Positions 3,359-64,000 of a stretch of DNA of 64,000 bases are shown piece after piece (position 1 is the stretch's first letter; each line of letters opens with the position of its first letter). Made by a program: the position numbers and the translations under genes. Below the pieces are notes generated by a model. That model made no database searches, was not told the DNA's origin, and saw only the letters and a program-made list of their open reading frames with translations. The stretch is from Polyangiaceae bacterium (lineage in GTDB: Bacteria > Myxococcota_A > Polyangia > Polyangiales > Polyangiaceae). The stretch is taken from the NCBI GenBank assembly GCA_020849655.1, contig JADLFU010000012.1, forward strand, positions 1 through 64,000, read 5' to 3'.

Positions 3359-4222
3359 ATGCCGGAGCCGCGCTACCCGTTCGTCCACGTCGACGTCCCC
3401 GAGGAGCTCGCGGACGCGCTGTCGCTCGCGCTGTTCGACCTCGGGGCCGAGGGCGTCGAGGTGCGGGACGCGGGGACGCTGGCGCGATCGGCGCAGGCCG
3501 GCGAGGTCACCTTGGTCGCGGCCTTCTCGTCGCGCGAAGGGGCCGAGCGCGCCGTCGCGGCGCTCGACGAGGAGCTGCGGCCGCGGATCGAGGAGCTCGT
3601 GGGCGACGCGTGGCGCGACGCGTGGAAGGAGCACTACAAGCCGTTCTCGCTCACGCCGAGGGTGACCGTGCGCCCTCCGTGGGAGCGCTGCGAGCCGACG
3701 CGCGACGACGAGATCGTGCTCGAGCTCGAGCCGGGCCGCGCCTTCGGCACCGGCCTGCACGCGACGACGTCGCTCGTCGCCCGCGCGCTCGATCACGGCT
3801 CGAGCCGCCTCGCGGGCGCGCGGGTGCTCGACGTCGGGACGGGCAGCGGCATCCTCTCGCTCGTCGCGCTCTCGCTCGGCGCCGCCGCCGCCGTCGCGGT
3901 CGACGACGACGAGGACGTGCTCGGCGTCGTCCGCGAGAACGCCGCGCGCAACGGGCTCGAGGGCCGGCTGGAGGCGTCCGCCACGCCGGTGGGCGCGCTC
4001 ACCGAGCGCTTCCCCGTCGTGGTCGCGAACATCGAGGCGCGCGTGCTCATCCCGCTCGCCGCGGAGATCTCCGCGCGCGTGGCCGCCGGCGGGCTGCTGC
4101 TCCTCTCGGGGATCCTCGACGGACAGGAGGCCGACGTCGCGGCGGCCTACGCGCCGATGCGGGAGCTCGAGCGCACGCGCGAGGGCGAGTGGGTCTGCCT
4201 CGCGCTGACGACGTCGCCGTGA
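3359..4222 (+). CDS. prmA: Ribosomal protein L11 methyltransferase
   Basis: PrmA trimethylates lysines and the N-terminus of ribosomal protein L11 using S-adenosylmethionine. The 287-residue protein has the expected small N-terminal domain, a linker containing DAWKEHYKPF (around residue 90), and the C-terminal methyltransferase domain. The latter shows GTGLHATT, the SAM-binding DVGTGSGILSL, and VVANIEARVL in place of the usual NIL motif. Its length matches the family. The TGA stop overlaps the GTG start of rsmE by four bases (GTGA), which indicates translational coupling of two ribosome-modification genes. Confidence 0.95.
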   Translation: MPEPRYPFVHVDVPEELADALSLALFDLGAEGVEVRDAGTLARSAQAGEVTLVAAFSSREGAERAVAALDEELRPRIEELVGDAWRDAWKEHYKPFSLTPRVTVRPPWERCEPTRDDEIVLELEPGRAFGTGLHATTSLVARALDHGSSRLAGARVLDVGTGSGILSLVALSLGAAAAVAVDDDEDVLGVVRENAARNGLEGRLEASATPVGALTERFPVVVANIEARVLIPLAAEISARVAAGGLLLLSGILDGQEADVAAAYAPMRELERTREGEWVCLALTTSP

Positions 4223-52214: not shown

Positions 52215-52487
52215 TCAGCGCGTGAGCTTCACCAGGCCGTCATCGTCGAGCCCGCGCACGAGCGCCTCGAGATCGGCCTGGGCGACGTCGGCGGAGACGT
52301 CGAATTCCTCGCAGATCACGCGCGTGACAGCGTCGATCGTCGCCCCGCCCGTCGCGGAGAGCGCCCGCCACGCGGCCACGCCCACGGGGTTGAGCGTGAA
52401 GTAGAACTTCGTGTCGAGATCGAGCAACACGCCGCTGCCGTCGGCGAGCTCGGTGAGCAAGACCCGGGGGCTGGCGACGATCGTCAC
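52215..52487 (-). CDS. PqqD-like RiPP recognition element protein
   Basis: PqqD-type proteins bind the leader of a RiPP precursor and present it to maturation enzymes. The 90-residue product (from GTG 52487) reads SPRVLLTELADGSGVLLDLD, then KFYFTLNPVGVAAW, and ends with a helical region with EEFDVSADVAQADLEALV. This is the usual PqqD strand-strand-three-helix pattern. A longer frame to 52559 runs into the promoter of the divergent lipoprotein gene. It lies 1.1 kb beyond the other RiPP genes on the same strand, with a plus-strand lipoprotein gene between. It probably serves the precursor at 56003-56158. Confidence 0.75.
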   Translation of the reverse strand: MTIVASPRVLLTELADGSGVLLDLDTKFYFTLNPVGVAAWRALSATGGATIDAVTRVICEEFDVSADVAQADLEALVRGLDDDGLVKLTR

Positions 52488-52559
52488 GCCGCCGACCGTC
52501 CCACTTCGGGGGCACCGCGTCGAGCCCCGCCGTATGCTGGGCAGGAGGTATTCGAACAC

Positions 52560-53627
52560 ATGATCCGCCGAGCATCCTGGGCCGCCCTCTCCCTGTCGTT
52601 CGCGCTCTTCGCCGCCGCGTGCGTCGCAGAAGAAGACGTGGCGACGACCACGCCGATCAACGGATCAGCAGGCCAGGCGGGTGACGGCGGCGAGGCGGGC
52701 GCGGGCGGTGACGCGGGCGCGGCAGGCGCGAGCGCGGGCGCGGCAGGCACGAGCGCGGGCGCGGGCGGGCAGAGCGCCGGCGCAGCGGGCGCCAGCGCAG
52801 GCGCCGCGGGGTCGGGCGGGTCGAGCGCGGGCGCGGCGGGCGCGGCCGGGTCTCCCGGCTCCGGGGTCGGCGACTCGTGCGCCGATCTCGCAGGGTTCAT
52901 CTCGATCGACGAGGCGCCCGTCGTCGTCGACGCGTCGAGCGCGGCGGCGAAGGACGATCTGTCGGCGAGCTGCACCGGCAAGGGCACGACCGAGCGCGTC
53001 TTCCGCTTTCGCCCGCTGTCCGACGGCCTGATCACGTTCACGGCGCCCGCCGGCGTGTGGCCGAGCATGTACACGCTGACGAAGTGCGGCGGCGGCGAGG
53101 CCACGTGCACGGCGTCCGGCAAGCTCGTCGCGCCCGCCATCGCGGGCCAGGACATCACGCTAGTCGTGGAGACGCTGACGAGCGCGCCGTACCAGCTCAC
53201 CGCGACGCCCACGCCGTCGTCGCCGAAGGACATGTGCTCTCCGGCCGGCGTGACGCACGAGCTCCCAGACGGTGAGGCGCTCCTCTTCGAAGGAGACACG
53301 GCGGGCGGCGCGTCGACCGTCGCGCCCACCTGCGGCGCGGGCGCGAGCGGCGGCGAGCGCGCGTACCGCGTGCGACCGCTGAAGAGCGGGACGCTGAGCG
53401 TCGAGCTCCGATCCCCCGACGGTGATCCCTCCCTCGACGGCGCGGTCTATGTGCGCGACGCGTGCGACGCCAAGGGCAAGGAGCTCGCGTGCGCGTCGAG
53501 CGCCGCGGCCGGCGCCACGGAGACGACGAGCTTCGCCGCGACCGCGGGCGTCACCTACTTCGTCGTCGTCGACACCGTCGGCGCCGCCGCGGGGCCCTTC
53601 GAGCTGCGCGTCGCGCTCGATCCCTGA
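52560..53627 (+). CDS. Lipoprotein with Gly/Ala linker and repeated beta-sandwich domains
   Basis: The 355-residue protein has AGGAGG eleven bases before its ATG. A signal peptide ends in lipobox FAAAC, then a Gly/Ala/Ser linker runs to about residue 100. The body has two similar beta-sandwich-like segments: FRFRPLSDGLITFTAPA with VWPSMYTLTKC, and YRVRPLKSGTLSVELR with DPSLDGAVYVRDAC. These resemble PPC-type or C-terminal secretion-associated domains. It lies inside the RiPP region but on the opposite strand. Its last 73 bases overlap the 3' end of the leader peptidase gene. Confidence 0.75.
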   Translation: MIRRASWAALSLSFALFAAACVAEEDVATTTPINGSAGQAGDGGEAGAGGDAGAAGASAGAAGTSAGAGGQSAGAAGASAGAAGSGGSSAGAAGAAGSPGSGVGDSCADLAGFISIDEAPVVVDASSAAAKDDLSASCTGKGTTERVFRFRPLSDGLITFTAPAGVWPSMYTLTKCGGGEATCTASGKLVAPAIAGQDITLVVETLTSAPYQLTATPTPSSPKDMCSPAGVTHELPDGEALLFEGDTAGGASTVAPTCGAGASGGERAYRVRPLKSGTLSVELRSPDGDPSLDGAVYVRDACDAKGKELACASSAAAGATETTSFAATAGVTYFVVVDTVGAAAGPFELRVALDP

Positions 53628-53998
53628 GCGCTCGCGCGGAGCGTCACCGTGTACGCGCGCTCGAGCGCCTCGTCGAAGACCTCACCCTCGAGCTCGACCC
53701 ACGCGTGGCCGGTGTCAGGCTCGTCGGTGACCACCGCGAGCACGAACTCCGCGCGGTGACCGTGGCGCGCGAGCAGCGCGAAGCGCGTGAGCGCGCGGTA
53801 CAGGCACGTGTCCGGGACGACGCGGGCGGTCGTGACCCACCCTTCGGTCGACGCGAGCGCGCGCCGCACCGACACGAGCGGCGCCCGCCACGTCGGCCGG
53901 GAGAGGCGCCCGAGCAGCGCGTCGAGGGGCGAAGCTCGGAGCGCGAACGGCAGCGAGAGACGCAACGCGATCGCCTCCGCGACGAGCCTGGCGCTCAC
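53555..53998 (-). CDS. Transglutaminase-like leader peptidase (lasso-type B2 protein)
   Basis: B2 proteins are cysteine proteases of the transglutaminase superfamily that remove RiPP leader peptides. The 147-residue product has the catalytic Cys65 in DTCLYRALTRFALLARHG, His98 in GHAWVELEG and an acidic partner at about Asp109 (VFDE). The N-terminal helices match the short B2 form. It starts at GTG 53998, overlapping the kinase-like gene by four bases. The last 25 residues are low complexity and overlap a convergent lipoprotein gene, so the functional protein may end earlier. PqqD as partner is consistent with B1/B2 systems. Confidence 0.78.
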   Translation of the reverse strand: MSARLVAEAIALRLSLPFALRASPLDALLGRLSRPTWRAPLVSVRRALASTEGWVTTARVVPDTCLYRALTRFALLARHGHRAEFVLAVVTDEPDTGHAWVELEGEVFDEALERAYTVTLRASAQGSSATRSSKGPAAAPTVSTTTK

Positions 53999-54912
53999 GA
54001 CGCCGCCCTCGAGACCGCCGCGTGGACGACGCCCGGATCCCGGAGCGCGTCAGGCCCGAGCTCGAGCGACCACGCCGGCACAGCGTCGGCGAGGCGCGCG
54101 AGCAGCGCGAGGTTCTCCGTCGCGAGGGGCACCTCTGCCACCGCGACGAGCGCGCTCGCCTCGATGAGCCCGCCGAGCGCGTCAGCGGGGGCGAGCGGCA
54201 AGAGGCGCGTCGGCTCGCTCGCGAGGCGCGGGAAGACCAGCGCCGCCGGCCTTGGCGACGACGCGACGAAGCGCTCCGGCCACCGCGCGCGGACGTCGCC
54301 GCGGCGCTTGCCACCGAGCACCGGGCCGGCGAGCGGCACGTCGCGGAGCGAGGGGAGCGCGGCGACCGTCGCCGCCGCCAGGTGCGCCTCGCGCGGGTAG
54401 GCGAGCACGCGGTCCGGGCCGCGCAGGAGCACGCGATCGTCCGAGAGGAACCGCGCGCCACGCTCGACGCACGAGAACAGCGCCGTCGTCTTGCCCACGC
54501 CCGCGTCTCCGACGAGGAGCGCCGCGCGCTCACCGAGCATCAGCCCCGCCGCGTGCAGCTCCACCCACCCGCGCAGGCGGAGCGCGAGCAGGAGCGCCGC
54601 GTGCATCAGCCCACCCAGGAACGGCTGTGGCGCGCACGGCGCCGCGACGCTGACCTGGCCTCCCTCCGCCGACACGTCGCCGCGCGCGTCGCCGTCGAAG
54701 AGCGAGTAGCCGTCCGGCTCGGCGTACACCTGCACGGCACCAAGAAAGTACAGCGGTCGCCCAGCGGGCCGCGTCGGCGTCGCGCGCCGGACCCGCACGA
54801 CCACCTCGGGCGCGCGGACGACAGCGGGGAACGCCGAGAAGAACGGCGTGAGCGGATCGTCGTCGAGCTCGGTGTCGTGGGACACCGCGAGCCCGTGCAC
54901 GTCCGCGATCAC
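53995..54912 (-). CDS. HPr-kinase-like P-loop protein of a RiPP cluster
   Basis: The 305-residue protein resembles the HprK-related kinases seen beside lasso-peptide and PqqD genes. A variable N-terminal half precedes the P-loop GDAGVGKTT (residues 135-143), FLSDDRVLL with the conserved acidic pair (158-159), and C-terminal GKRRGDVRARW and LVFPRL. Some relatives phosphorylate a Ser of a RiPP product; most are untested. The start (GTG) and stop both overlap neighbours by four bases, so it is coupled between the radical SAM gene and the B2 peptidase gene. Confidence 0.75.
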   Translation of the reverse strand: MIADVHGLAVSHDTELDDDPLTPFFSAFPAVVRAPEVVVRVRRATPTRPAGRPLYFLGAVQVYAEPDGYSLFDGDARGDVSAEGGQVSVAAPCAPQPFLGGLMHAALLLALRLRGWVELHAAGLMLGERAALLVGDAGVGKTTALFSCVERGARFLSDDRVLLRGPDRVLAYPREAHLAAATVAALPSLRDVPLAGPVLGGKRRGDVRARWPERFVASSPRPAALVFPRLASEPTRLLPLAPADALGGLIEASALVAVAEVPLATENLALLARLADAVPAWSLELGPDALRDPGVVHAAVSRAAS

Positions 54913-55964
54913 GACACGATCGGCAGGCGGTTGCGCTTCTCCCAGGCGCCCCGCCAGCGCTGTCGCGCCGCGGGAGGGCCGCCGACGCCGTCGTCGATCC
55001 AGTGCGGTTTACCGAAGTGCTTCATGCACCAGTTGCAGGCGAAATGATCCCAGTCGCCGATCTCGCCGCGCTCGATGGCGTCGAGCTTCGCCTCCTGGGC
55101 GTCGTGGACGAGCCTCACGAAGCGCCGGTGCGCCTCGGTCAGCGACATCACGTTGAGGTCGCCCGCGATGTCCCGGTCGGAGCCGTCGCCGGGGATGCCC
55201 GAGTGCTGGCAGCAGAGGTTCACGCGCCCCTGGAGATCGACGTGCAGCTGCTGGCTCGCGAACGGCTGGCACACATGAAACGGCTGCTCGGTGTACCACC
55301 CCTCGGGCACCCCGACCGGCAGCGTCAACGCGTCGCGCAGCCGCTCGATGCGCGCGAGCACCCTGCGGAACGCGGCCGGTGACAGGTAGTGATCCCGGTC
55401 GTGGTGGGTGCCGGTCGGTTGCGTCAGCGTGAACGAGAGCCGGTTGGCGCCGAGCTGGCTCGCGAGGAGCCCCATCGCCTCGACCTCGTGCTCGTTCTTC
55501 GCGTGGACGGCCATCTGCAGCACGAACTTGACCCCTGACGCCATGCACACCGACGCCGCGCGGAGCACCTCCTCGTAGCTGCCCTTCTCGCGGATGGCGT
55601 CGTGGACGCCGGCGGTCGCGCCGTCGAGGCTGAACGACACGGAGGTGAGGCCCGCGAGCCGCTCCGGGCGCGCGCCGAGAAGCTCGAGGACCGCGGGGAA
55701 CCCGTGGCCGTTCGACACCATGTGCCAGCTGAAACCCTGGTCGACCGCGGCGTCGACGACCGCGCCGAACTCGGGGTGCAGCGTGGGCTCCCCGCCGCTG
55801 AACGCGGTGTGGTCGGAGCCGTACTTCTCGCGCGCCTCGCCGAGCACCCGGCGGATCAAGGCGACGGGGAGATCCTTCGGGCGCAGCTCGGGATCGCGCA
55901 GGCAGTGGTGACAGTCGAGGTTGCACCGATCGGTGATGTGGAAAGTGATCCATCCCACTGCCAT
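54909..55964 (-). CDS. Radical SAM/SPASM-like peptide maturase
   Basis: The 351-residue protein has the radical SAM cluster C14-x3-C18-x2-C21 (TDRCNLDCHHC), the SAM-contact GGEP motif (SGGEPTLHP, near residue 58), and SFSLDGATAGVHDAIR. The C-terminal part has cysteines at 232, 251, 252, 310 and 313, in the SPASM/Twitch region: VCQPFASQQL, GRVNLCCQHSG and CNWCMKHFGKPHW. Such enzymes install C-C, C-S or C-N crosslinks or epimerise residues in peptides. It starts 38 bases after the precursor gene and runs by a GTGA overlap into the kinase gene. The chemistry cannot be predicted from sequence alone. Confidence 0.88.
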   Translation of the reverse strand: MAVGWITFHITDRCNLDCHHCLRDPELRPKDLPVALIRRVLGEAREKYGSDHTAFSGGEPTLHPEFGAVVDAAVDQGFSWHMVSNGHGFPAVLELLGARPERLAGLTSVSFSLDGATAGVHDAIREKGSYEEVLRAASVCMASGVKFVLQMAVHAKNEHEVEAMGLLASQLGANRLSFTLTQPTGTHHDRDHYLSPAAFRRVLARIERLRDALTLPVGVPEGWYTEQPFHVCQPFASQQLHVDLQGRVNLCCQHSGIPGDGSDRDIAGDLNVMSLTEAHRRFVRLVHDAQEAKLDAIERGEIGDWDHFACNWCMKHFGKPHWIDDGVGGPPAARQRWRGAWEKRNRLPIVS

Positions 55965-56002
55965 CGGCGCGCCTCTCTCTCAAGAAACCGGCGGCGTCGC
56001 CG

Positions 56003-56158
56003 TCAGTTCATCACGTTGATGACGCCGACGCTGACCATGTTGACGGCCATGCCCGACAGCAACGTGACCCGCGCGACCGAGCGCTTCTTCTCGATCTTCG
56101 GCGGCTGGTAGGGCTTCTTCGGGGCGCGGGGCGCGCTCTTGTCGTCGGGCTTGTCCAT
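56003..56158 (-). CDS. Candidate RiPP precursor peptide
   Basis: The 51-residue peptide starts with a charged leader (MDKPDDKSAPRAPKK), then the motif Y17-x-x-P20-x-I22 (PYQPPKIEKK). This resembles the Y-x-x-P-x-L motif that PqqD-type elements recognise in lasso leaders. VTLLSG (31-36) may close the leader. The C-terminal segment MAVNMVSVGVINVMN is a plausible core, with no Cys, Ser only once, no Thr, three Asn and three Val-Asn/Ile-Asn pairs. The gene starts two bases after the stop of the upstream lipoprotein (TGACCATG) and lies 38 bases before the radical SAM gene. Longer upstream frame is inside the lipoprotein gene. Confidence 0.72.
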   Translation of the reverse strand: MDKPDDKSAPRAPKKPYQPPKIEKKRSVARVTLLSGMAVNMVSVGVINVMN

Positions 56159-56160
56159 GG

Positions 56161-57513
56161 TCAGTTCGGGGTCAGGGTGTAGCGGACGGGGTAGTTCGCA
56201 GCCCCGCCGGTCGCGGGGAGGAAGACGGTGTTCGGGGTCACCGCCGCCTGACCCACGCGGGTCACGCCGAGCGGATTGGTGCCCTGGACGCCGACGACGG
56301 CGTCGATGCCGCGGGTGTCGCTGGTGATGCCGCCGGCCGTGGGCTCCTCGTAGTAGTACTCGAGGACGTCCGTCCCCTCGTACACGATCGCGGTCATGCT
56401 CACCTTCGTCGTGCCGCTCAGGTTGATGTCGACGTCGTGCCAGCGCAGCACCAGCTGCCGGTTGGGCGCGGTGCCGAGCGTCTTCATGCACACCTTGGAG
56501 TCGCCCGCGTAGGCGAGGTTCAGGTCGGCCCAGAAGACCATGCCCACCGCGCTGCCGAAGCCGAACTGGCTGGAGGGCACGTTGTTGCTGTTGTCAGACG
56601 CGCCGGTCGCCCCGATGCCGAACACCCCGTTGTCGGAGACCCAGCCCTTGTCCACGTACGCGGCGGGCGTCGCGTGGCTGGGGTTCAGCTGGTAGATCGT
56701 GAACGGAAAGGGGAGGCTGAACAGCGACGTCACGCTCTCGCCGCCGCCGTCGTCGAGCAGCACGGTGCCGCCGGCGCACGCGTCGGGGGGGGTCGCCACG
56801 GCCGGACCCGAGACCGTGTAGCCCGTGTAGCGCCCCGAGGAGTAGACCTCGACGGTGAAGTTGACGCTGTCGACCGTCGGATCGAAGCCCCCGGAGTAGT
56901 TGATGTTCATCCGCTTGTTGGCGGACGCGCCCTCGAGCGTGCCGTACTTGTAGTAGACGGCGCCAGACAGCGGCGGATTGTACGTCGAGGGGGGCGTGTC
57001 CGTCCCGGAGAAAGTGACCGTGCCGTTCGTGGTCGTCACGTTGCTGATGACCACCCAGACGTCGTCGAAGCTCGCCGCGCCCGGGTCGACGTTCACCTGC
57101 CCGCAGGTCTGCACGCCGCCCGCGCCGCAGTCGGAGAACAGCGGGTGGGGCGTCCCGAGCGCGCCGCACGTGCCGCTCGTGCAGTCGGCGCAGTTGTTGG
57201 CGCCCGAGCAGTAGAACCCGCCCGTGCTGGAGAGCGTCGCGAACGTGAACTTGCTCCCGGTGTCGAGCTTGAAGGCCTGCTCGCCCGCGCCGGCCGCGCC
57301 GGGCATCGGGAGGCGCTCGAACGCGAGGCCCTTGCCCGCGCCGAACGTGCCGCGGTAGCGCGCGCCGAGCCGGCCTGGAGCCGCCGTCTGCGCCGCGGCG
57401 CCCGGGGTCGAGTCGGACGGCTGCGGCGCCGGCGCCTGGGGATCGCTGGACGCGCACGCCGCGGTGAGCGCGCAAGCGAGCAGGGCGACCGAGCCGAGAG
57501 CAAGCTTCTTCAT
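56161..57513 (-). CDS. Secreted lipoprotein upstream of RiPP precursor
   Basis: The 450-residue protein has a strong GGAGGA ribosome-binding site, a signal peptide ending in lipobox LTAAC (Cys about residue 20) and a Pro/Ala spacer. A Thr/Ser/Asn-rich beta domain follows. A Cys cluster lies near residues 100-117 (YCSGANNCADCTSGTCG). The C-terminal half contains GMVFWADLNLAYAG, LVLRWHDVDINL and VSMTAIVYEGTDVLEYYYEE, as in secreted repeat proteins of Myxococcota. I do not recognise a family. Its stop is two bases from the precursor start, so it should be translated from the same message and may be the anchor, target or sensor of the peptide. Confidence 0.7.
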   Translation of the reverse strand: MKKLALGSVALLACALTAACASSDPQAPAPQPSDSTPGAAAQTAAPGRLGARYRGTFGAGKGLAFERLPMPGAAGAGEQAFKLDTGSKFTFATLSSTGGFYCSGANNCADCTSGTCGALGTPHPLFSDCGAGGVQTCGQVNVDPGAASFDDVWVVISNVTTTNGTVTFSGTDTPPSTYNPPLSGAVYYKYGTLEGASANKRMNINYSGGFDPTVDSVNFTVEVYSSGRYTGYTVSGPAVATPPDACAGGTVLLDDGGGESVTSLFSLPFPFTIYQLNPSHATPAAYVDKGWVSDNGVFGIGATGASDNSNNVPSSQFGFGSAVGMVFWADLNLAYAGDSKVCMKTLGTAPNRQLVLRWHDVDINLSGTTKVSMTAIVYEGTDVLEYYYEEPTAGGITSDTRGIDAVVGVQGTNPLGVTRVGQAAVTPNTVFLPATGGAANYPVRYTLTPN

Positions 57514-61051: not shown

Positions 61052-61450
61052 TTAGCGCGATCGAAACGTCAAGCTCACGGAATTGATGCAGTAGCGCTCG
61101 CCGCTCGGGGGCGGCCCGTCGTCGAACACGTGGCCGAGGTGCCCGTCGCACCGCGCGCACGTCACCTCGACCCGCCGCATGCCGTGCGAGTGGTCCGCCC
61201 GCCGCGCGACCCGGCCGGCCTCGATCGCGCCAGAGAACGCCGGCCAGCCGCAGTGCGAGTCGAACTTCGTCTCGGAAGAGAAGAGCGGCGCGCCGCAGCC
61301 CGCGCAGGCGTAGGTGCCGGGCGCGCGGTGGTCGTCGTACGCGCCGGTGAACGGCCGCTCGGTGCCGCGCTCGCGGAGCACATGGTACTGCGCGGGCGTG
61401 AGCTCGGCGCGCCACTCTGCGTCGGATTTGTTGATCTTGTCGTCACTCAT
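61052..61450 (-). CDS. msrB: Peptide-methionine (R)-S-oxide reductase
   Basis: MsrB reduces methionine-R-sulfoxide in proteins. The 132-residue protein has the zinc cysteines at 49, 52, 98 and 101 (CAGC and [12 protein letters not shown]). The catalytic Cys121 is in [28 protein letters not shown] and [11 protein letters not shown] are family hallmarks. Its length is that of a single-domain cytosolic MsrB. The ATG lies inside the end of the phytochelatin synthase gene (8-base overlap), so translation is coupled. The pairing suggests shared response to thiol or metal stress. Confidence 0.95.
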
Positions 61451-62645
61451 CGGGCGACAGGATACCCGGCGGCGCGCGGCACGGGGCCGGCTCCGGATCG
61501 GTGGGCGCGGCGAGCTCCATCAGCGCCGCGAGCTGCTCGCGGAGGTCGCCTAGCTCGCGCTGGAGGGCAGGGTCGGCGGAGGCGCGCGCGGCGTCGAGGG
61601 CGTCGCGGACCGAGGGCGAGAGCGTCGGGAGCGCGGCGTCCGGCAGCGCGAGGGTGAGCGCCGCGACGCCGAGCGCGCGCGCGGGATCGAGCGCGGGCTG
61701 CGACGCGACGACGCGACCGAACAGCGGCGTCGCCTCGATCGCCGATCGGAGGCGCGCGTGCAGCTCCCGCTCCGCGTCTGGCGCGTCCCCGGCGCGGGCG
61801 AGCGGGGCCGCGAGCGCGGCGAAGCGCTGTGAGAGGAGCGACGAGACGCGCTGGAGCAGCTCGTCGACGTCACGGGCGGGTGTCTGCTCGAGCGAGCGCG
61901 AGAGATCGAGCAGGAGCGCGCGGGCGGCCTCCAGCCACGGCGCGCGCGGATCGGCGAGCCGGGAGAGCAGGCTCGCGCCCGACGAGACGCGCCGGCGGAG
62001 CACGACCCAGCCCCGCGGGTGCCCCGTCACCGCGTCGATCTCCCGCATCGCGTCGTACAGCGCGCGGAGCGACGCCCAGTGCGGCGGGTACTTGAACCGC
62101 GCGACGTCGAGCACGAGCGCGAGATCGCGCGCGGCGTGCAGCCCGGCGACGGGAGAGAAATGCCCGTCGCCCGTCTGACCGAGCGCGCGCCGCGAGTAGG
62201 AGGCCGCGACGACGACGCCCGCCGGCGCGGCGCACGCCTCCTCGAGATCGCGGCGCAGCTCGTCGAGCGTCGAGGTGTCCGCGCGGCGCACGAGCGCGGT
62301 CGCGCCGTTGCACCGGGCGAGGCACGCGAACTGCCCGAGCGTCACGCCTCGCGCGCGGATGCTCTCGAGCGGCAGGCAGCAGTCGAGCAGCTCCTCGCTG
62401 TACCAGCGCCAGGGGCCCTTCCACACGCGACCGGGATCGATGCCGAGCGCGTTCAGCGCGACGACGAGGGTGCCGAGCCCGCAGAACGCCGGGTCGGCCT
62501 GCGTATGAAACTGCTCCGACAGCGCGAACCAGCCCTCGAGGTGCCCCTCGGCGAGCGCCTCGCGGAACAGCACGCGCCCCTCCGGGCTGGTGAACGCGAC
62601 GAGCTCGGGCGGCAGCGGGCGGCGGTAGAGTCCTTCGTCGGGCAT
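61443..62645 (-). CDS. Phytochelatin synthase (plant-like, long form)
   Basis: Phytochelatin synthase joins gamma-Glu-Cys units of glutathione into metal-binding peptides. The 400-residue protein shows [29 protein letters not shown], the block [19 protein letters not shown], and [15 protein letters not shown] with [13 protein letters not shown]. The catalytic triad is Cys55, His162 and Asp180, nearly identical in position to plant PCS1 (56/162/180). Most bacterial homologues are about 220 residues and hydrolyse glutathione only. This one adds a C-terminal 190-residue Ala/Arg-rich region without the usual Cys pairs. ATG 62645 is used; the frame upstream lacks signal. Confidence 0.9.
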
Positions 62646-62723
62646 CCGGCGCGCGGCAGGTAGCACACCCAGGCGGGCGGGCTCTACGCGACGGCGTCGC
62701 TCTGCTATGGCGACGGGAGGGCG

Positions 62724-64000
62724 GTGCTCACGGTCGGCCAGATCCTCGCGTCGAAATACCGCGTGCTCGCCACGCTCGGGCAAGGCGGGATGGGAGAGGT
62801 CGCGCTGGCGGAGCACCTGGTCACGGGAAGGCGCGTCGCGGTGAAGGTGATCCTCGGCGCCGCCGATCCCGCCACCCAGGCGCGCTTCGACCGCGAGGCG
62901 CGCGCGATGGCGGCGATCGAGTCACCGCACATCGTCGGCGTCCTCGACGCAGGGGCGGACGAGCAGACGGGGCAGCGGTTCCTGGTGATGGAGTACCTGC
63001 GGGGGCGAGATCTCGCGACGACCCTCGCGCGCGTCGGGCCGCTCGCGTCCGGTCTCGTCGCGCGCGTGGCGCTGCAGGCGTGCGCGGGCCTCGCGCGGGC
63101 CCACGCGGCGGGCTTCGTGCACCGGGATCTGAAGCCAGCGAACATCTTCCTCGCGGACAAAGACGGAGAGGTGACGGTGAAGCTGCTCGACTTCGGCGTC
63201 GCGAAGGCGGGCGTCGACGCCGGCGCGAGCCACGCGCTCACGCGCACGGGGCACCTCGTCGGCTCGCCGCTCTACATGTCCCCCGAGCAGGTGGCGGGCG
63301 ACGTGACGCTCGACGGACGCAGTGATCTCTTCTCGCTCGGCGTCGTGATGTACGAGCTCTTGACCGGAGCCGCACCTCACGCGGGCGTGCTCTCGTTTCC
63401 GAAGCTGCTGCTCGCGGTCTCGACGGTGGGGGCGCCGACGCTCGAGGACACCGCAGACGTCGACCCGGGCCTCGCGCGCGTGGTGCAGCGCGCGCTCGCG
63501 CTCGACCGCGAGGCGCGCTGGGAGAGCGCCGACGACCTGCGGGAGGCGCTCTCGAAGATCGTTGGCGCGGACACGCGGATCCAGACGCACGAGCTGGGCA
63601 TCACGCTCGAGGACGCCGCGCCGCCGCGGGTGACCGTGCCCCCCATCAGCGGCTTCGCGACGACCGAGCTCGCGACGGCGTCGACGACCGCGGCGAGCGT
63701 GCGACGTCCGTCGGCCCCGCCGCCCCGCGCGCCCCGCTGGCCGATCGGCGCGGGGATCGCGATCGCGGGGATCGCGCTCGGAGGGGTGTGGCTGCGGGTG
63801 AGCTCTGCGCCCCCTCACGTCGCGGAGCCAGCGCGCAGCCCCGCGACCACGCCGTCGGCGAGCGATGCGCCCCCGTCCGCGAGCGCCCCGGTCGCGGCGT
63901 CTGCCAGCGCGACCGCGAGCGCCGCGACGCCGCACACCGTCGACCCTCCGCGCGCCGCGAGGAGCGCCGCGCCGCCGCCGACACGCGCTGCGCCATCCCC
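62724..64000 (+). CDS. Serine/threonine protein kinase (3' end beyond window)
   Basis: A Hanks-type kinase is read from GTG 62724 after GGGAGG. The kinase domain shows the Gly-rich loop LGQGGMGEV, Lys41 in VAVKVI, FVHRDLKPANIFL (catalytic loop), LLDFGVAK, GSPLYMSPEQ and DGRSDLFSLGVVMYELLTG. A Pro/Thr-rich linker follows, then one membrane helix (WPIGAGIAIAGIALGGVWL) and a Pro/Ala/Ser-rich tail cut by the window end at 64000. The layout is the usual myxobacterial PknB-like receptor kinase; the tail would be outside the cytoplasm. The ligand and substrate are unknown. Confidence 0.9.
   Translation, partial: MLTVGQILASKYRVLATLGQGGMGEVALAEHLVTGRRVAVKVILGAADPATQARFDREARAMAAIESPHIVGVLDAGADEQTGQRFLVMEYLRGRDLATTLARVGPLASGLVARVALQACAGLARAHAAGFVHRDLKPANIFLADKDGEVTVKLLDFGVAKAGVDAGASHALTRTGHLVGSPLYMSPEQVAGDVTLDGRSDLFSLGVVMYELLTGAAPHAGVLSFPKLLLAVSTVGAPTLEDTADVDPGLARVVQRALALDREARWESADDLREALSKIVGADTRIQTHELGITLEDAAPPRVTVPPISGFATTELATASTTAASVRRPSAPPPRAPRWPIGAGIAIAGIALGGVWLRVSSAPPHVAEPARSPATTPSASDAPPSASAPVAASASATASAATPHTVDPPRAARSAAPPPTRAAPS

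Follow-up and report, generated by a model that had tools for sequence, protein, structure and literature searches.

Closest described systems

The closest described relatives of the locus analysed here (positions 52215-57513 of a 64,000-nt stretch, hereafter the window, of Polyangiaceae bacterium contig JADLFU010000012.1) are pathways for ribosomally synthesised and post-translationally modified peptides (RiPPs). Phosphorylated lasso peptides (paeninodin and Bsf; PMC9266682, PMC10368454) resemble it in their set of B1, B2, HprK-like kinase, nucleotidyltransferase and exporter genes, as well as in leaders displaying Tyr(-17), Pro(-14), Leu(-12) and usually Thr(-2) (Ile in Bsf). In lasso leaders, the first three of these residues are bound by B1, and Thr(-2) serves processing (PMC10368454). 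In contrast to these systems, the present locus displays no cyclase nearby and no ring acid, contains a radical S-adenosylmethionine (SAM) enzyme, and has a kinase belonging to a separate branch.

The pathway of linear polyphosphorylated peptides (LPP; Popov et al., May 2026, PMC13381572) shares with the locus a YxxPx[V]...T leader with a Ser three residues past the Thr, a discrete RiPP recognition element (RRE), an HprK-like kinase and the absence of a macrolactam cyclase. Its nucleotidyltransferase and ABC (ATP-binding cassette) exporter have counterparts only in relatives of the locus, three of which also display a polysaccharide-type gene. LPP was described in Bacillota with a SipW-like signal peptidase, whereas the present family occurs in Myxococcota and other phyla with a lasso-type B2 and a radical SAM enzyme. 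No SipW-like signal peptidase was found among the conserved neighbours, though no profile search was aimed at signal peptidases. StsC-type sactipeptides (PMC12710340) likewise combine a discrete PqqD-like RRE with a radical SAM pathway and a W/Y/LxxP-like leader motif; the present locus differs from them by its Cys-free core and by the presence of B2 and a kinase. Pyrroloquinoline quinone (PQQ), mycofactocin and SynChlorMet (NCBIfam Scm) systems display a PqqD-like RRE together with related radical SAM enzymes. Neither a lasso-type B2 nor a leader of that type is known from these three.

Our results make it likely that the locus produces a RiPP that is a sister of lasso peptides, with a lasso-type leader, RRE and B2, a kinase, and a radical SAM enzyme replacing the cyclase. 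Somewhat less firmly, we favour the view that it represents a third lasso-leader RiPP branch in Myxococcota, Acidobacteriota and Planctomycetota, in which radical SAM chemistry, perhaps of an undescribed kind, takes over from the cyclase. The system is lasso- and LPP-like up to leader handling. It is not a lasso peptide system, as it lacks two of the defining features, the cyclase and the ring acid; the peptidase in turn is unlike that of LPP. An earlier reading of this DNA made from the letters alone (the sequence-only reading) knew of no described class with this gene set; the literature searched gave no match, but LPP, a close relative, is already described (PMC13381572). No paper combining these genes was found in the open-licence literature, and a subscription paper could exist.

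Gene organization

The following genes compose the core of the locus:

56003-56158, minus strand: precursor peptide gene, 51 aa, MDKPDDKSAPRAPKKPYQPPKIEKKRSVARVTLLSGMAVNMVSVGVINVMN
54909-55964, minus strand: radical SAM maturase, 351 aa (PF04055, E 1.8e-21, 77 bits)
53995-54912, minus strand: HprK-like peptide kinase, 305 aa (Hpr_kinase_C, E 2e-4, under the Pfam cut-off)
53555-53998, minus strand: lasso-type B2 leader peptidase, a transglutaminase-like cysteine protease, 147 aa (NF033537, PF13471)
52215-52487, minus strand: PqqD-family RRE, lasso B1-like, about 90 aa (PF05402; the open frame reaches 52559)

Exact 4-base overlaps were observed between the radical SAM and kinase genes (54909-54912) and between the kinase and B2 genes (53995-53998). 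Transcription on the minus strand would run from a lipoprotein gene through the precursor, radical SAM, kinase and B2 genes. Precursor, maturase, kinase, B2, overlaps and PqqD protein had all been named in the sequence-only reading, and each was found in place.

Conservation of the gene set

Orthologues of the radical SAM gene were found in 26 of the 184 genomes of the order; a sample of 379 genomes from the phylum, searched at a stricter threshold, contained 19 with an orthologue. Iterated profiles were used to compare 27 loci of the order, which formed 15 locus groups and a few of which were short at contig ends. Around the orthologous radical SAM genes, the precursor was recorded in 25 loci, HprK and PqqD in 26 each, and B2 in 24; all five genes recurred in 13-14 of the 15 groups. 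A comparison of these neighbourhoods across Myxococcota had been proposed in the sequence-only reading. It had also named, as an observation that would tell against it, homologues of the radical SAM enzyme with no small peptide gene beside them; this was not observed, as the two loci in which the precursor was missing are cut by contig ends. Exceptions to the complete set were L059 and L060 (contig ends) and L048, which carries one of two radical SAM copies of its genome.

Gene order varied between genera: in some loci B2 and PqqD precede the other genes on the opposite strand, in others they follow them or are found some kb off. The association is hence better explained by a shared function than by inherited synteny. 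Among the matches listed by a scan of a genome collection, 74 less related radical SAM loci served as controls and displayed neither precursor nor B2 (0 each), while PqqD-like and HprK-like genes were present in 14 and 8 of them, respectively. Chance adjacency was ruled out by these controls together with the conservation of the locus. The 184 genomes of the order were also scanned with a precursor profile, and its 25 best matches (E to about 2e-13) were all located beside the radical SAM gene.

Precursor peptide

Residues 1-33 of the precursor (56158-56060) form the predicted leader, which displays Y17xxP20xI22 and T32 and fits, in register, the lasso motif Y(-17)xxP(-14)x[I/L/V](-12)...T(-2). 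The predicted core, LSGMAVNMVSVGVINVMN, is about 18 residues long (56059-56006). Alignment of 26 distinct tails, anchored on YxxP, was gapless up to the predicted cleavage site. Position -17 was Tyr or Phe in all 26 (Tyr in 24) and position -14 was Pro in all 26, while I/L/V occupied -12 in 25 tails, Thr -2 in 22 and Leu -1 in 24. Cores usually started with a hydrophobic residue, followed by Ser or Thr (24/26, position Y+18) and then usually by Gly, Pro or Ala; past the first five residues they varied widely in length and letters. The positions of cleavage (after Leu33) and of phosphorylation are predicted by analogy with the lasso and LPP registers (PMC10368454, PMC13381572).

Compared with its nearest relative, the window precursor displayed seven synonymous and three non-synonymous codon changes. 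This precursor is more than a chance open frame because it is conserved, as seen in both the 25 whole-genome matches and these codon changes. Sequences in the PDB returned no match to it.

Contrast with lasso clusters of the same order

The next-best matches of the precursor profile mostly fell in genomes without the radical SAM gene, and 14 such places were read. One of them (L159) belongs to the radical SAM family and is cut by a contig end. Another (L163, described below) has neither a radical SAM gene nor a cyclase in the part read. At ten of the remaining places, the best precursor has an Asn_synthase-family gene no more than about 0.6 kb away, which identifies them as lasso clusters. Their cores (for example GGTMGITEGGG) displayed Asp or Glu at positions 7-9 in all ten cases. 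Such an acid was found in only two of 25 distinct cores of the radical SAM family and is missing from the window core. One leader module thus goes with a cyclase and a ring acid in the lasso clusters, and with a radical SAM enzyme and no such acid in the other family.

The absence of a cyclase, already claimed in the sequence-only reading, was confirmed: none was found in the window cluster, and the nearest PF00733 matches of the family are on other contigs or at least about 10 kb off. Its proposal of lasso-type leader processing leading to a non-lasso product is also supported by the conserved gene set, the in-register leader and sister clusters that differ in cyclase and ring acid. The pair of PqqD and B2 is by itself insufficient to identify a lasso peptide cluster. 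Leader, RRE and B2 would compose a portable module to which evolution has joined differing core-modifying enzymes: in one case an Asn-synthetase-like cyclase, in the other the pair of radical SAM enzyme and kinase. Such enzyme swapping in RiPP evolution is testable, since sister systems share the leader register and their cores could be exchanged.

Kinases of the two kinds of clusters were compared in an unrooted tree obtained by a quick search. Those associated with lasso clusters fell on one side of a branch with a support of 99 (Shimodaira-Hasegawa-like approximate likelihood ratio test), and those associated with radical SAM genes were placed apart, together with distant ones from Acidobacteriota and Planctomycetota. 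This separate kinase lineage suggests that the radical SAM branch is an old lineage rather than a recent replacement.

A true lasso cluster whose cyclase acts in trans from elsewhere in the genome, the radical SAM enzyme adding an extra tailoring step, would account for the lasso-type leader, RRE, B2 and kinase, and Asn_synthase-family genes do occur on other contigs of the window genome. Yet the usual macrolactam ring is impossible for the 23 of 25 cores that lack Asp/Glu at 7-9, and the ten true lasso loci of the order keep their cyclase close by. Furthermore, the Asn_synthase gene nearest to a family member, about 10 kb away, is an open frame of asparagine-synthetase size. A lasso peptide made in trans, to which we give almost no credence, was rejected on the lack of the ring acid and on the separate kinase lineage.

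Kinase-bearing lasso clusters were recorded in several genomes of the order (L160-L172), with leader YxxPxLxxLGSVRELTL and Gly-rich cores. One genome (G107) displayed at least two lasso-type precursors on one contig.

Leader peptidase and recognition protein

B2 matched NF033537 (lasso_biosyn_B2) with 46.5 bits against a cut-off of 33, and PF13471 with 58 bits, also above cut-off. Its Cys65 and His98-Ala-Trp were invariant. A sequence comparison of B2 with the PDB gave no meaningful match.

The PqqD-family protein, whose translation probably begins with the GTG codon at 52487, matched PF05402 above cut-off (53.6 bits). Its best NCBIfam models were the lasso and SynChlorMet RREs, both under cut-off. 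Among solved structures, its sole sequence match was TbiB1 (E 3e-4), which we take to be a lasso RRE.

Kinase and predicted phosphosite

Residues His120, Lys141, Asp158 and Asp159 of the kinase (His, Walker lysine and DD motif) were invariant in distant homologues; this His-Lys-Asp-Asp set was reported to be essential in lasso-tailoring kinases (PMC9266682). HprK_rel_A was also matched (E 1e-10, under cut-off), and one distant kinase relative weakly matched ScmC. LPP leaders follow the consensus YxxPxVLxHQxIxFETxxS, in which the Ser at the third position past the Thr is polyphosphorylated by an HprK-like kinase (PMC13381572). This Ser corresponds to position Y+18 of the radical SAM family. We predict Ser35 (56056-56054) as the phosphosite of the window precursor because the LPP Ser register falls on Ser or Thr in 24 of the 26 tails. 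Caution is called for by the Thr present at this position in seven of the 26: Thr was not accepted by LppK (PMC13381572), and it is accepted by BsfK (PMC10368454).

Radical SAM enzyme

The CxxxCxxC motif of the radical SAM enzyme spans residues 14-21, with C14, C18 and C21 conserved. Five further conserved cysteines (C232, C251, C252, C310 and C313) occur in the C-terminal part, suggestive of a reduced, twitch-like region for an auxiliary cluster. The enzyme had been called SPASM-like, a description that is only partly right: the C-terminal cysteines are there, but no SPASM domain was matched in Pfam at E up to 1, and the seven-cysteine motif of that domain is not present. PqqE and SkfB were the closest solved relatives by sequence, PqqE being the best PDB match. 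The solved folds closest to the predicted structure (mean predicted local distance difference test score 79) included BlsE, PqqE and SkfB; anSME and SuiB, among others, were also fold neighbours. The closest NCBIfam models included mycofactocin MftC, PqqE and SCM enzymes, with all equivalog scores far under cut-off.

These affinities could point to a peptide-derived redox cofactor of the PQQ or mycofactocin kind, the peptide serving as scaffold for a small molecule. Cofactor precursors, however, keep their cofactor residues, whereas core residues beyond the first five are widely variable here, and no dehydrogenase family was found among the conserved neighbours. A cofactor is accordingly very unlikely.

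The auxiliary-cluster cysteines and the SkfB and SuiB fold neighbours would be expected of an enzyme making a crosslinked peptide (a sactipeptide, a ranthipeptide or a triceptide-like cyclophane). Neither thioether nor cyclophane chemistry can be general in the family because 23 of the 25 distinct cores are Cys-free and many have no aromatic residue, the window core being devoid of both. The sequence-only reading had suggested a crosslinked or epimerised peptide; with cores of this composition, the known crosslinks that depend on Cys or aromatic residues are disfavoured as the usual reaction of the family, and we hold a product of these kinds to be very improbable. Our guess is that the sister-of-lasso pathway proposed here involves epimerisation, another change at aliphatic residues, or a modification at the hydrophobic-Ser/Thr step of the core start. 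The distinct radical SAM clade and its defined precursors make this family a place to seek new peptide chemistry.

Proposed pathway

The following succession of steps would be consistent with the gene set. The PqqD-like RRE would bind the leader at Y(-17)xxP(-14)x[I/L/V](-12), as lasso B1 does. On the RRE-bound precursor, the radical SAM enzyme would alter the core and the HprK-like kinase would phosphorylate the near-invariant Ser/Thr located three residues after the Thr (Ser35 here). Finally, B2, aided by the RRE, would cut after Thr(-2)-Leu(-1) and free the core of about 18 residues. No macrolactam lariat would be formed because both the lasso cyclase and the ring acid are missing, and the radical SAM enzyme would be the defining modifying enzyme in the cyclase's place.

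Several observations weigh against this scheme. It was built on the gene set, the leader motif, conservation and the ring-acid contrast, and sequence alone does not reveal what the radical SAM enzyme does to the core. The Fisher p of the ring-acid contrast (3.6e-7 for 10/10 versus 2/25) is inflated by the non-independence of same-genus loci, although the contrast itself is plain. Cores with an acid at 7-9 do occur in the family (groups G181/G182 and G088), and Thr(-2) is substituted in four of the 26 tails. The fold search with B2 gave only weak transglutaminase/NAT-like matches. The PqqD gene lies outside the operon, as a gene on the opposite strand intervenes, and the window contains no ABC exporter near the cluster or elsewhere. 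At one locus (L163, G141:C35:1-12000), a precursor (4021-4212, minus strand; core FSPSQH) lies beside a kinase, an ABC exporter and a methyltransferase, while both the radical SAM gene and a lasso cyclase are missing from the part read. The maturase may hence be dispensable in some members; L163 could represent an LPP-like form, or its radical SAM gene may have been lost.

The absence of a radical SAM gene at L163 would suit an LPP-like linear phosphopeptide, where what the kinase makes is decisive and the radical SAM enzyme contributes a minor modification or belongs to another pathway nearby. So would the shared leader register, Ser/Thr and HprK, RRE, exporter and nucleotidyltransferase types. 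We nevertheless consider it unlikely, since the radical SAM gene lies beside the precursor in nearly every locus and overlaps the kinase gene by 4 bases in the window, and since LPP relies on the signal-peptidase-like LppS instead of the lasso-type B2 found here.

Neighbouring genes and distant versions

Among relatives, an ABC exporter is encoded in or next to the cluster in 8 locus groups, a SAM methyltransferase-like protein in 5 and a PF14907 nucleotidyltransferase in 4. Each of these protein types is also known from clusters of the lasso or LPP kind. Neither the methyltransferase nor the nucleotidyltransferase was found in the window. The exporter had been described as absent from the locus; this holds for the window, but not for several relatives, where one lies close to the same genes. 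Many ABC proteins are encoded in the window genome, among which no clear orthologue of the relatives' exporter was found; the best match covers mainly the ATPase half, with 32% identity.

A more distant version of the system was found in Candidatus Brocadia pituitae (Planctomycetota; L065, 6738-9952), where kinase and radical SAM genes are followed by PqqD and B2. Its candidate precursor, located beside HprK, has the candidate core QSNGFFSAFVP. Another distant version (L155, G189:C627, 159-2796) displayed the candidate core GFFGTFYP. In these, the peptide preceding the kinase ends in ..PKLxKxGDAxxxT and an aromatic-rich GFFSAFVP or GFFGTFYP, and the EPKLTF/PKL motif of the leader is apparently duplicated. 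The motif search at distant loci was noisy; only the candidates from L065 and L155 were accepted, and that of L067 is uncertain. The radical SAM target may differ in this branch with short, aromatic-rich candidate cores. Partial gene sets were recorded in Acidobacteriota. Further loci of the more distant version are L063, L064, L066 and L067.

Three loci (L057, L058 and L059, from G181, G182 and G183) displayed a second PqqD-like gene on the opposite strand, which adjoins the ABC exporter in two of them (L057 and L058). Proteins with PD40/WD40 repeats are encoded around the clusters of these loci. In three other genomes (L045, L046 and L052), the cluster adjoins a Wzz/BY-kinase type polysaccharide gene. 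This is reminiscent of LPP and paeninodin clusters, for which co-localisation with capsule loci was reported.

Other features of the window

Three further features border the core genes:

56161-57513, minus strand: lipoprotein, 450 aa, directly upstream of the precursor, no informative family match
52560-53627, plus strand: secreted lipoprotein, Gly/Ala-rich, between B2 and PqqD
55989-56002, minus strand: small GC-rich hairpin (pattern scan), between the precursor and radical SAM genes

The upstream lipoprotein, for which Pfam and NCBIfam searches gave no informative match, is a probable operon member. Only 2 bases separate its stop from the precursor start, and a homologue directly precedes the precursor gene in 8 of the 27 loci (5 of the 15 groups). 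It is possibly a surface target or an immunity protein, or unrelated. The plus-strand gene shares 73 bases with B2, at the 3' end of the latter. The hairpin is a possible attenuator; terminator-like hairpin sites found by pattern scan did not exceed chance expectation in number, and a promoter scan found none. An open frame at 61443-62816 (minus strand) resembles phytochelatin synthase, as judged by eye only.

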